Assembly: GCA_027037705.1 (NCBI GenBank)
Contig: JALVYZ010000249.1
Coordinates: forward strand, 1-10,826
Reading direction: 5' to 3'
Source: a bacterium
Lineage (GTDB): Bacteria > DYJV01 > JALVYZ01
DNA length: 10,826 bases
Positions within the stretch are counted from its first letter, which is position 1. Every line of letters begins with the position of its first letter. Shown here in pieces: positions 2,273 through 10,826 of the stretch. Below the pieces are notes generated by a model, which did no database searches, was not told the DNA's origin, and saw nothing but the letters and a program-made list of their open reading frames with translations. The translations under genes and the position numbers were made by a program.

Positions 2273-2334
2273 GAAGGATGAAGGTTGAAGGTGGAAGAGA
2301 TTTTATTAACTAACCCCTTCTGCCTTCCCCATTC
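2273..2334. repeat. inverted pair of GAAGGNN heptamer arrays around an AT core
   Basis: On the plus strand four consecutive heptamers, GAAGGAT, GAAGGTT, GAAGGTG and GAAGAGA (2273-2300), are followed by a 13-base AT-rich core (2301-2313, containing TTATTAAC). Three heptamers of the complementary type then follow: CCCCTTC, TGCCTTC and CCCATTC (2314-2334). The arms can pair: GAAGGTGGAAG (2287-2297) with CTTCTGCCTTC (2317-2327) gives 11 pairs including two wobbles, with a 19-base loop. The right arm touches the stop codon of the response regulator and the left arm ends just before the hemW start. No T tract follows on the transcribed strand, so this is not a standard intrinsic terminator. Function unknown. 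Confidence 0.75.
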
Positions 2335-2686
2335 ACAAAACCAATATTTTTCTTATTTTTTCTTTTAATTCCGTTAAATCACTTGATTTTACAACATATT
2401 CTTCTGCACTCCAGGTTATGAAATTCTGTTTATAACTTTCGTATGCTGAACATAAAATTACTGGAATATCTTTAAAAAGCTCTTTAAATTTTTTTAAACC
2501 TTCTAATCCATCAACTCCTGGCATTTTTATATCAAGAATAATTAAATCAGGGTTAAAATCTTCAATCTTTTTTATAGCATTATTCACACTATCTGCTGTT
2601 TCTATGATATAACCTTCATCTGTTAATTCCTCTTTATAAAGCAATCTTATATTCTCTTCATCATCTACAATTAAAATTTTTTTCAA
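2333..2686 (-). CDS. single-domain response regulator (receiver only)
   Basis: CheY-like receiver of 117 residues with no output domain. Acidic pocket Asp8/Asp9, phospho-acceptor Asp52 (LIILDIKMPG), Ser80 at the switch Ser/Thr position (VILCSAYES) and the conserved Lys100 (YVVKSS) are all present, so it should accept phosphate. The start is TTG at 2686-2684, giving MKKILIVDDEEN, the classical receiver N-terminus. An ideal SD (AGGAGGTGA, 2699-2691) lies just upstream and also encodes the last codons and stop of the kinase gene. The gap is 4 bases, so kinase and regulator are almost certainly cognate and translationally coupled. With no DNA-binding or enzymatic domain, output must be by protein-protein contact or a phosphorelay to another protein; the partner is not in the window. 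Confidence 0.92.
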   Translation of the reverse strand: MKKILIVDDEENIRLLYKEELTDEGYIIETADSVNNAIKKIEDFNPDLIILDIKMPGVDGLEGLKKFKELFKDIPVILCSAYESYKQNFITWSAEEYVVKSSDLTELKEKIRKILVL

Positions 2687-2690
2687 AATA

Positions 2691-2699
2691 TCACCTCCT
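2691..2699 (-). promoter_or_regulatory. Shine-Dalgarno fixing the TTG start of the response regulator
   Basis: The minus strand reads AGGAGGTGA, followed by TATT and the TTG start. The same bases encode the final two arginines and the TGA of the histidine kinase. This near-perfect anti-SD match supports a TTG start, since no ATG lies near the receiver N-terminus. Confidence 0.8.
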
Positions 2700-4346
2700 G
2701 CATGGTAAAGTTATTTCTACTTTTGCTCCAATATCTGTATTTAAAATTTTTATATCTCCTCCATGTTGTTGAATTATTCTGTAAGATATTGTTAATCCAA
2801 GACCTGTTCCATATTCTTTTGTTGAAAAAAATGGTTCAAAAATTCTATTTAAAATTTCTTCTGGAATACCATTTCCAGTGTCTTCAAAAGATATTTTGCA
2901 CATTTTTGTTAATGGTTCAATTTTTATAAAAATTTTACCATTTCTTCCAATCGCTTCTATTGAATTTGTTAAAATATTTAAAAATACCTGTTTCAAAAGT
3001 GATTTATTTCCAAAAATTTTTGGTTCTACAGAATATTCAAATACAACTTTAATATTTTTTTCCTTTAACTCATTCTCTAAAAGATTTAAAGTATCATTAA
3101 TAAGCTCAATAATATTAACAGGATTTAAAGTAATTTTATTAGTTTTGGAAAAAATGAGTAAATCTTTTAATAATCTCTCCAATCTATGAGATTCTTGAGA
3201 AATTATATTTAAATATTTTCTTAATTTTTCTTTATCAAGTTTATCAAAATTTTTTATAATTCTACCAGTAAAACCTGAAATAGACATAATTGGGTTTTTG
3301 ATCTCATGCGATATTTCACCAAGAACCTCAAAAAAACTTGTCCTTTCCTCAATTTCAAGTTTTTTATAAAATAATTTTAGATTATTTAATTTTTTTGAAT
3401 AATTCAAAATTCCAGCAAGGAGATCTGAGATAACTGATATTTTAAAAATAACTGATTGACTTTGAATATTATTTACCACAAGCAATCCAATATTTAAATT
3501 TTTTAATTTTATTGGAAAAATAGCAATATTAATGAATCCAAACTCTTTTAACTTTTTATAAATTTCAATATTACAAAATGGATAATCTATAAGTTTAAAC
3601 TTGAATTTTCCAATCTTTTTAATCTCTTTATTAATACGAAATTTATTAAATGACAGCCTATCAAAATTTTTGAATGCATTTTCTAAAGAAATAAAATTCA
3701 AATCATCTTTTTCAAATGCATATTTAGGAATAAACTTTTTTTCATAAATAAAGAAAACAGCTCTATCTATATTTAATGAAAATTTTAAATAACAGAAAAG
3801 CACTTTAATTATCCTTACCCTTTCATGAAGAGAAAAAAGCTGCAATAAGAATTTTTTATCATCTTCAGTATATCCAATAACTGGATAAGATTTTCCTTTT
3901 ACCTCTTTTTTTAATGCTTCAGAAATATTCTCTAATTTTTCTTTTATTTTTATTTCTTTATAATATTCTTTAAAAAAGAGGGATAAAGTTCTTGTAAAAA
4001 TTGATAAAAATTTTATTTTTTCTTCATCTAAGTTCTCATCATTAACTATTAAAACTCCATAAATATAAAAATTATCTTTTACAGGAAAATAATATAAATT
4101 ATCTTTTTGTAAAACTTCTCCTTTTATAAAAACTTTTTTTAATACTTCGTTATTAATTTTAGAATTTAAATTTTCTATTTCAAAAATTTTTATAAATTTA
4201 TCTTTTTCAAATTGGTAAATGGAAATATATTGAAATGAAATTAGATTTTTTAATAATAAAAGCGCAGTATGTATTTTCTCATTTATAGATATGGGATAAT
4301 CATTTAATTCAAGACATTTACCTATTGCTTCTGCAAAAATTAGCAA
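2691..4346 (-). CDS. soluble sensor histidine kinase with two GAF-like N-terminal regions
   Basis: Cytosolic sensor kinase of 551 residues with no convincing transmembrane helix. Residues about 15-130 and 165-320 look like two divergent GAF-like sensor domains (alternating strand patterns ending in YGVLIVNDE and IGLLVVNN), separated by a charged coiled-coil-like linker (about 128-152). The HisKA dimerisation helix carries the phospho-acceptor His347 (GEISHEIKNP). The ATPase domain has the N box around Asn457-Asn461 (VFLNILTNSIEAI), G1 DTGNGIP (489-495), an F box (FEPFFSTK) and G2 GTGLGL (513-518). All catalytic elements are intact. The only start is TTG at 4346-4344, since a stop codon lies directly in front in frame; AAAGGAG at 4364-4358 is the SD at a rather long 11-base spacing. 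It follows galT by 3 bases and precedes its receiver partner by 4. The ligand is unknown. Confidence 0.92.
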   Translation of the reverse strand: MLIFAEAIGKCLELNDYPISINEKIHTALLLLKNLISFQYISIYQFEKDKFIKIFEIENLNSKINNEVLKKVFIKGEVLQKDNLYYFPVKDNFYIYGVLIVNDENLDEEKIKFLSIFTRTLSLFFKEYYKEIKIKEKLENISEALKKEVKGKSYPVIGYTEDDKKFLLQLFSLHERVRIIKVLFCYLKFSLNIDRAVFFIYEKKFIPKYAFEKDDLNFISLENAFKNFDRLSFNKFRINKEIKKIGKFKFKLIDYPFCNIEIYKKLKEFGFINIAIFPIKLKNLNIGLLVVNNIQSQSVIFKISVISDLLAGILNYSKKLNNLKLFYKKLEIEERTSFFEVLGEISHEIKNPIMSISGFTGRIIKNFDKLDKEKLRKYLNIISQESHRLERLLKDLLIFSKTNKITLNPVNIIELINDTLNLLENELKEKNIKVVFEYSVEPKIFGNKSLLKQVFLNILTNSIEAIGRNGKIFIKIEPLTKMCKISFEDTGNGIPEEILNRIFEPFFSTKEYGTGLGLTISYRIIQQHGGDIKILNTDIGAKVEITLPCRR

Positions 4347-9289: not shown

Positions 9290-9880
9290 TTATGGAGTAA
9301 CTATCTTTATTGCTTCAATAAGCTCATTTTGAATGTCAAACATATTTGATATACTACCAACTTTAATTTTCTCTTTTAAGTTAAAATAGTCAAGGCATGT
9401 GCCACAAGCTAAAATCTCAATGTTAAATTCTTTAGAGAGTTTTTCAAGTTCTTCTAAGATTTCTGACCCTTCTACTACTAACTTTACCCCTGAATTTACA
9501 AAAATAATTTTTTTTGGTTTTTTATCATTCTCAATTAATGTTTTAAAAAATGCTCTGATTAATATTGTTCCAAGTTCATCATTTCCCATTCCCATTGTGT
9601 TTTTATTAATGTATAAAATATAATTTTCAAGATTATTTTCTCTTTGAACTGGGATTTCACATGTAAAACCTTTTGTTATTGTTAAAGTAAAAACTCCATC
9701 TTTCTCCTCAACTTCGACAAAACATCCGGCTTTTTTAGCAAATCTTTCAACATTATTTTTTGATACAACATTATCCACTTCAACGATAACTATACCTTCA
9801 TCTATACTATCAAGAGCTTTTTTAGTTTCAACTACTGGAGTAGGACATGGTTTTCCTTTTAAATCAAGCTTCTTAGTCAT
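9290..9880 (-). CDS. yedF: YedF-type selenium-metabolism protein (TusA-like + DsrE-like)
   Basis: Cytosolic two-domain protein of 196 residues. The N-terminal TusA/SirA-like domain (1 to about 75) has the sulfur-carrier motif CPTP with Cys12 (LKGKPCPTPVVETKKAL). After a short linker, the DsrE/DsrF-like domain (about 85-196) contains MGMGNDELG (96-104) and a Cys pair CGTC (159-162) followed by LDYF. This architecture and length match YedF, a family often found next to selD and thought to carry or deliver sulfur or selenium during selenophosphate metabolism; its chemistry is not firmly settled. The ATG at 9880 overlaps the TGA of the potassium channel gene (ATGA), with GGAG at 9891-9888 as SD, so the two are translationally coupled. 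No selD, selA or selenouridine synthase gene is in the window. The family call is sure. Confidence 0.9.
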   Translation of the reverse strand: MTKKLDLKGKPCPTPVVETKKALDSIDEGIVIVEVDNVVSKNNVERFAKKAGCFVEVEEKDGVFTLTITKGFTCEIPVQRENNLENYILYINKNTMGMGNDELGTILIRAFFKTLIENDKKPKKIIFVNSGVKLVVEGSEILEELEKLSKEFNIEILACGTCLDYFNLKEKIKVGSISNMFDIQNELIEAIKIVTP

Positions 9881-10590
9881 TTGCTTTCTCCAACATCTTT
9901 TTTCAACCTATCAATATTTTCCTGTTCGCTTATAAAAATTAGAGTATCCCCTTCCTGAAGCACATAATCAAAATTTGGGTTAAAAACCATTGTCCCATCT
10001 TCTTTTTTTATTGCAACAACTATAGCATTATATTTCTTTCTAATTTGAGATTCTGCTAAATTTTTCCCAACAAGAGGTGAATTAGGAGAAATTGTAACCT
10101 CATCCATTTCAATTTCATTTATTAAAGTATCATGATAAGTAAAATCAAGAAAGTCTGTAACACTTGGCTTTAAAATAGCTTTAGCCATACGCATCGCTCC
10201 AATTTTATAAGGTGAAAAAACTTTATTAGCACCAGCTCTTAATAGTTTTCTTTCTGAACTTTCAACACTTGCTCTTGCAATAATATGAAGGTTTTTATTT
10301 AATTGCTTAGCAGTTAAAACCAAAAATAAATTATCTGTATCTTTTGGTAATGAAGCAACTAAAACTTTTGCTCTTTCAACCCCAGCTTCTAATAAAACTT
10401 CATCATCTGTTGCATCACCCAATAAAAAAGGAATTTTTAATTTAATTAATTCATTTAATAATTCTCTATCGTTATCAACAACGACTACTTCTTTATTAGC
10501 TTTATTTAATTCTTGAGTTATTATCTTTCCAATTCTACCATATCCACAGACAATATAATGATCACTAATTTCACTAATTAATTTTAACAT
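9877..10590 (-). CDS. candidate internal in-frame ORF: free soluble RCK subunit of the channel
   Basis: In the same frame as the channel, the ATG at 10590-10588 (Met74 counted from 10809) begins MLKLISEISDHYIVCGYG. It would yield a 237-residue soluble protein made only of the RCK and TrkA-C domains. In the studied archaeal MthK an internal start at Met107, at essentially the same position before the RCK Rossmann fold, supplies the extra RCK subunits of the octameric gating ring. Here the site has a textbook SD at ideal spacing. Production is inferred, not shown. Confidence 0.6.
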   Translation of the reverse strand: MLKLISEISDHYIVCGYGRIGKIITQELNKANKEVVVVDNDRELLNELIKLKIPFLLGDATDDEVLLEAGVERAKVLVASLPKDTDNLFLVLTAKQLNKNLHIIARASVESSERKLLRAGANKVFSPYKIGAMRMAKAILKPSVTDFLDFTYHDTLINEIEMDEVTISPNSPLVGKNLAESQIRKKYNAIVVAIKKEDGTMVFNPNFDYVLQEGDTLIFISEQENIDRLKKDVGESK

Positions 10591-10826
10591 TTTATTTCTC
10601 CTGAATTTTAATGTTAATACACTCTCAACAAAACTCTCAGTTACTATTTTAATTGTATAACCAAAACCTGTAAATCCAATCAATATAACAAATATAGTGT
10701 ATATTCTGCCAAATTTATCTAAAGGCTCAATTTCTCCATATCCAACAGTTGTAATACTTATAAAAACCATATAAAGAGCATCTATAAATGAATATTTTTC
10801 AAAGACCATATAGCCTAACGACGAGA
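9877..10826 (-). CDS. MthK-type RCK-gated potassium channel (5' partial)
   Basis: The reading frame stays open through the window edge (SSLGYMVFEKYSFIDALY...), so the first transmembrane helix and true start lie upstream. Numbering from the Met at 10809: pore helix and selectivity filter TTVGYGE (20-26), then the inner helix (about 36-60, IYTIFVILIGFTGFGYTIKI). A linker leads to an RCK N-domain with nucleotide-binding-like GYGRIG (89-94) and acidic Asp112 closing strand 2 (VVVVDND). A TrkA-C-type domain (about 225-305, ending YVLQEGDTLIFISEQENIDRL) follows. This is a two-helix potassium channel gated by ligand at the RCK ring, usually Ca2+ or nucleotides. The GYGRIG motif suggests nucleotide binding, unlike the GWSES of M. 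thermautotrophicus MthK. An internal SD and ATG precede the RCK domain (separate entry). The stop overlaps the yedF start by 4 bases. Confidence 0.92.
   Translation of the reverse strand, partial: SSLGYMVFEKYSFIDALYMVFISITTVGYGEIEPLDKFGRIYTIFVILIGFTGFGYTIKIVTESFVESVLTLKFRRNKMLKLISEISDHYIVCGYGRIGKIITQELNKANKEVVVVDNDRELLNELIKLKIPFLLGDATDDEVLLEAGVERAKVLVASLPKDTDNLFLVLTAKQLNKNLHIIARASVESSERKLLRAGANKVFSPYKIGAMRMAKAILKPSVTDFLDFTYHDTLINEIEMDEVTISPNSPLVGKNLAESQIRKKYNAIVVAIKKEDGTMVFNPNFDYVLQEGDTLIFISEQENIDRLKKDVGESK
10596..10602 (-). promoter_or_regulatory. internal Shine-Dalgarno before the RCK domain
   Basis: The minus strand reads AGGAGAA, with 7 bases between AGGAG and the in-frame ATG at 10590. 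It lies in codons of the membrane-to-RCK linker (LKFRRNK). It is as good as the SDs of the separate genes in this window. Confidence 0.65.

Follow-up and report, generated by a model that had tools for sequence, protein, structure and literature searches.

The closest solved single-RCK channel to the gene described here is MthK, for which the origin of a free RCK protein from an internal start at Met107 is established, the free protein being co-expressed with the channel from the same gene (PMC9440719, PMC2573919). The corresponding RCK fragment, M107-A336, was purified from cultures expressing wild-type MthK (PMC2573919), and the solved structure features rings composed of four tethered and four free RCKs (PMC9440719). 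It is disputed whether RCK channels in general use such an internal start under physiological conditions or whether it is an oddity of overexpression. An internal start in single-RCK channels of bacteria has already been proposed (PMC3510474, PMC2920069, PMC4565861), and a general need of such channels for a free RCK product was stated earlier as well (PMC3510474).

In the small alignment presented by Roosild et al., the linkers of Kch channels always hold a methionine (PMC2920069). As cited in that article, Kuo et al. (2003) removed the putative internal start of Escherichia coli Kch and found expression and function unchanged, and thus the internal-start rule is not universal. Electron crystallography of Kch, again as cited by others (PMC4565861), suggested free RCK domains and not a ring. 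E. coli Kch resembles the present gene product, hereafter the query, in being an RCK channel with a linker methionine (the putative start Met240) and a reported soluble RCK (PMC4565861), yet it differs in its 6TM architecture, in the distance of Met240 from the RCK, which is 5 and not 10 residues, and in an AAGGA located 12 nt before Met240. This atypical internal start region of the E. coli kch gene (L139:7017-8270) may explain the published negative result obtained with the mutant.

One construct of GsuK from Geobacter initiated at Met107 in E. coli (PMC3510474). GsuK shares with the query a pore and an RCK gating ring, the latter presumed for the query; unlike the query, it is a dual-RCK channel, which needs no free subunit because two RCKs reside in one chain, and the five relatives examined lack a regular cassette of Shine-Dalgarno (SD) sequence and start codon (signal at 1/5 dual-RCK loci, a set too small to decide). 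In Thermotoga maritima, TM1088A and TM1088B are two RCK-type proteins of one ring whose common transcript contains an internal ribosome binding site (PMC4380455). Unlike the query, however, they are encoded in two separate overlapping frames, an in-frame internal start is absent, and no pore forms part of the chain.

The window, i.e., the whole stretch of 10,826 nt analysed here, is identical with its contig (G000:C249), and the 5' end of the channel gene is open for this reason, its N-terminal part including the first TM lying beyond the contig end. The following features are relevant to the gene:

9877..10824, minus strand: partial gene of a 2TM, single-RCK K+ channel (Pfam Ion_trans_2, TrkA_N and TrkA_C; selectivity filter TTVGYGE; match to MthK)
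10627..10815, minus strand: pore module (Pfam Ion_trans_2), truncated at its start
10598..10602, minus strand: putative internal SD AGGAG (codons AGG AGA, Arg-Arg), read from the sequence and in the same register as in homologues
10588..10590, minus strand: putative internal start codon ATG, equivalent of MthK Met107 (sequence; homologous codon)
9877..10590, minus strand: predicted second product, a soluble RCK subunit of 237 aa and 26.6 kDa (translation from the internal ATG; homology to MthK RCK chains)

As in MthK, a 2TM K+ pore with its selectivity filter is followed by one RCK (TrkA_N plus TrkA_C), the first TM of the query being cut off by the contig end, and an in-frame start codon lies 10 residues before RCK strand 1. 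Unlike MthK, the query is bacterial, and its relatives use TTG and GTG besides ATG. MthK chains align to residues 3-310 of the channel product, while the MthK RCK chains 2fy8, 2aef and 3rbx align to residues 87-310. With one TrkA_N and one TrkA_C in its chain, the query falls outside the dual-RCK channels of the GsuK/BK type. In the nearest relative found (L007, same order, 56% identity), the homologous channel occupies an open frame of 358 aa. The translation of the query displays the hallmarks of a putative nucleotide-binding RCK/KTN domain, GYGRIG ... VVVVDND, comprising GxGxxG and an acidic residue at the end of strand 2. The Ca2+ ligands of MthK, D184, E210 and E212, are replaced by A, R and S at the aligned positions, which sets the query apart from Ca2+-gated MthK orthologues and therefore suggests that it is probably gated by a nucleotide instead of Ca2+. 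The retained GYGRIG...D motif likewise points to a nucleotide as the more probable ligand of its RCK.

On the minus strand, the sequence at the linker reads ...AAATTC AGGAG AAATAAA ATG TTA..., in which a gap of 7 nt separates the SD (10602-10598) from the in-frame ATG (10590-10588), both being placed between the Ion_trans_2 pore and TrkA_N. This arrangement at the junction of pore and RCK, as described in an earlier note on this DNA, was confirmed, and so was its proposed equivalence to MthK Met107: the internal methionine precedes the histidine that opens the first RCK strand by 10 residues, just as Met107 precedes His117. The second product of about 26 kDa predicted there agrees with the mass computed from the internal ATG, while the SD, which had been called optimal, is good but not maximal, since it constitutes 5 nt of AGGAGG.

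Genes of the window use SDs such as aaggaggt, ggaggtgat and aaaggaggtttt, and an SD of at least 5 nt is found in range of 2 of the 46 in-frame internal ATGs of the window's genes. Given the residues before the internal methionine and the local codon usage, in which arginine is encoded by AGA in 81% and by AGG in 15% of cases, 14.7% of the synonymous versions carry such an SD (P = 0.147). The single instance in the query gene is not significant by this chance estimate, and the case was therefore judged by comparison of homologues. A weak hairpin predicted at 10583-10617 (UUAACAUU...AAUGUUAA) contains the SD and has the internal ATG in its paired part, though its folding energy of -7.2 kcal/mol (z -0.69) is not significant.

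For this comparison, 80 loci were taken from a genome collection and another 150 from whole genomes, most families being sampled with one or a few, which together yielded 227 usable homologues; proteins were aligned and codons were read at the homologous linker position. Expected codon counts for the first set were derived from the codon usage of each locus itself, whereas the null for the combination of NTG and SD consisted of synonymous shuffles that keep the protein, with small positional shifts allowed. P values from these comparisons assume independent sequences although the homologues are related, and are indicative only.

In L007, AGGAG and ATG are kept in an identical register, and the cassette is retained across many bacterial families, so that the nucleotide conservation which the earlier note had proposed as a check was indeed observed. 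NTG together with an SD occurs at the linker of 199/227 homologues, as opposed to 44.5 +/- 5.0 expected from synonymous shuffles, and the codon homologous to the start is ATG, TTG or GTG in 194/227. The distance between SD and start, in the AGGAGG register, is 6 nt in 136 of 162 cases. Strong cassettes with a non-AUG start include GGGAGG-N6-TTG, as seen in Desulfobacterota or Nitrospirota. When each alignment column was examined for start codons preceded by an SD at a suitable distance, the linker gave 67 against 5.0 expected in the genome-collection set and 96 against 20.7 in the family-spread set; in both sets no other column has a strong excess, the remaining columns together being near expectation. 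The query itself has an in-frame start codon at the linker site equivalent to Met107, with an SD suitably placed before it, and both are conserved as nucleotides.

The individual codons are constrained as well. Leucine at the start position is encoded by TTG in 48/48 cases of the first set (6.3 expected), while no other among the 67 leucine columns of the gene exceeds 27% TTG in that set; among the 227 homologues the corresponding values are 53/61 against 8.0. Valine at the same position is GTG in 23/25 (8.3 expected; 227 homologues). Upstream, glycine at -4 is GGG in 62 of 67 cases in the first set, where 16 were expected, and in 86 of 94 among the 227 homologues (22.5 expected), and arginine at -3 is AGG or AGA in 85/87 (36 expected) and 149/153 (59.9 expected), respectively. 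Moreover, the tree implies about 49 changes of residue class, and TTG is the sole codon at the site in 22 of 28 separate leucine clades, which indicates that the result is not driven by a few lineages.

Most homologues with 40-47% identity to the query carry leucine or valine in place of the methionine. Loss of this residue in close homologues had been named in the earlier note as grounds for refutation, and literally it has occurred; these residues are, however, written as TTG and GTG, which are bacterial start codons, and the loss therefore strengthens the claim of an internal start. The residue drifts between methionine, leucine and valine but its codon stays within the bacterial start set, which argues that selection maintains the linker signal for its role in starting ribosomes and not as protein. 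The same figures bear on coincidence or protein constraint, according to which a basic linker (Gly/Arg-Arg-X-X-hydrophobic) merely happens to be encoded by purines. The chance estimate of P ~0.15 for the query gene alone and the abundance of Arg-Arg at the site are in line with such an explanation, yet the shuffles preserve the protein and reach 44.5 where 199 were observed, which refutes it at the family level, and neither the other leucine, glycine and arginine columns of the same genes nor the linkers of Kef antiporters exhibit the pattern. It is accordingly judged very improbable, and constraint at the protein level was rejected on the basis of the synonymous shuffles and the control columns.

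Start codon and SD are moreover coupled. Linker leucines accompanied by an SD are TTG in 51 cases and another codon in 2, as compared with 2 TTG and 6 other codons where the SD is missing. Weaker start codons are paired with stronger SDs: an SD is present at 96% of TTG or GTG linker starts and at 75% of ATG linker starts, while in-frame NTG codons elsewhere in the gene have one in 15-18%. In addition, the mRNA of the homologues around the site is less folded than that of synonymous shuffles by 1.77 +/- 0.21 kcal/mol, of which 0.86 +/- 0.17 kcal/mol remains when SD and start codons are held fixed; at least 20 codons away from the site, folding deviates in the opposite direction. A conserved RNA hairpin was considered and rejected, given the insignificant hairpin of the window and the reduced folding of the homologues there.

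These observations also speak to the idea that the SD-like purines, with no start involved, make ribosomes pause so as to time insertion into the membrane, or folding, between TM2 and the RCK. Such a pause might be useful at this place, directly behind TM2; it needs, on the other hand, no start codon, yet the codon some 6 nt downstream is restricted to ATG, TTG or GTG while the residue varies, this restriction vanishes where the SD is lost, and the mRNA is relaxed as it is at starts. A pause is thus regarded as very improbable. SD-like sequences can also stimulate frameshifts, and a programmed frameshift stimulated by the SD would be conceivable on these general grounds, but nearly all homologues retain an open, conserved frame throughout the RCK and a frameshift does not predict the start-codon constraint, which reduces its probability to a negligible level. 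As judged from the aligned genes, selection across this bacterial channel family acts at the nucleotide level on the start codon, the SD, their spacing and the relaxed mRNA structure, consistent with internal initiation.

Kef antiporters, in which the same RCK fold follows a linker and no free copy is needed, served as controls and displayed the signal in 2/31 cases against 1.94 expected; with these controls at expectation, the signal was rejected as a general property of RCK linkers. Neither is the internal-start signal universal among the channels, as 28/227 homologues are without it by the criterion used, some of them having an SD that is one nucleotide too close for this criterion. Losses were encountered in Acidobacteria, Chloroflexota and a Nitrospira. 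Some of the groups without the signal rely less on SDs. In plasmid-borne relatives from Rhodococcus and Hymenobacter, the signal was looked for and not found. The named plasmid records with a homologue annotate a single full-length product, and among them only the genes of Azospirillum and Sphingomonas have an SD-like stretch before an in-frame TTG or ATG. The gene of Azospirillum lipoferum (L278:1300-2391), an alphaproteobacterial channel with 29% identity to the query, carries GGAGG-N8-TTG in its linker. CTG takes the place of the start codon in two homologues, L162 and L225; that of L162 stands behind a full GGGAGG and is directly followed by an in-frame GTG, so that the start may have shifted by one codon or CTG itself may be used. 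L112, L153, L173, L183, L189 and L196 have lost the usual start codon but contain an in-frame ATG 1-4 codons further downstream, which gives the impression of a relocated start.

With regard to the query, the site is very probably an internal translation start that yields a free RCK of 237 aa besides the full-length channel. Ribosomes would bind AGGAG within the coding sequence of the channel and start at the ATG at 10590, which would provide the free RCK domain alongside the full-length protein. The notion of one gene with two proteins is thus supported at the nucleotide level in homologues, from which we infer that the second protein is produced in the query organism. By homology to MthK, four free and four tethered RCKs would then assemble into a ring of eight RCKs that opens and closes the pore; it is by this analogy that the second product is presumed to join the channel in a 4:4 ring. 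Alternatively, initiation might occur internally without any 4:4 ring being formed, the free RCK functioning as a homodimer in solution, as a substoichiometric modulator or in partnership with a different K+ system. Ring stoichiometry is not visible in sequence, and both varying stoichiometry (Kuo et al. 2007, 2008, as cited in PMC2920069) and free RCK arrangements in Kch (as cited in PMC4565861) have been reported. Since MthK as the closest solved single-RCK channel has solved rings of four tethered and four free RCKs (PMC9440719), and most homologues place the start precisely where MthK has its boundary, this alternative is considered unlikely, and participation in a 4:4 ring is preferred.

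Beyond the query, it appears somewhat probable that the single-RCK K+ channels of many bacterial groups are two-product genes with a selected cassette (GGGAGG/AGGAG, a spacing of about 6 nt, and ATG, TTG or GTG) whose start is often non-AUG, that databases list only one of two obligatory subunits, and that the proportion of free versus tethered RCK depends on how strong the SD is and on which start codon is used. That leucine is written TTG wherever an SD accompanies it is difficult to account for other than by selection for an internal start, and bacterial genes with the cassette constitute places where the dispute on such starts can be settled. If the proposal holds true, annotations of a large class of bacterial K+ channels omit the second subunit, which may also be lost unnoticed when constructs are recoded for expression. 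While the mechanism itself is known from Met107 of MthK, nucleotide-level evidence, TTG or GTG starts or bacterial breadth for the linker site were not found in the searchable literature; a family-wide nucleotide-level signature in bacteria with TTG and GTG starts appears to be unreported in the literature searched.

Further features of the contig and genome accompany the channel gene. Within 2333-4346, a histidine kinase and a response regulator both have TTG starts with strong SDs upstream, which suggests that TTG starts are used by the organism. The genome of the query contains a second, distant pore/RCK-like locus (G000:C314:13-879, L003) with 25% identity, whose matched frame has a stop codon near a contig end and which is possibly another K+ channel or a broken gene. 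Finally, the channel stop codon shares 4 nt (ATGA, 9877-9880) with the ATG of the next gene, which encodes a YedF-type selenium-metabolism protein (TIGR03527) and whose translation may, on account of this overlap, be coupled to the channel/RCK frame.
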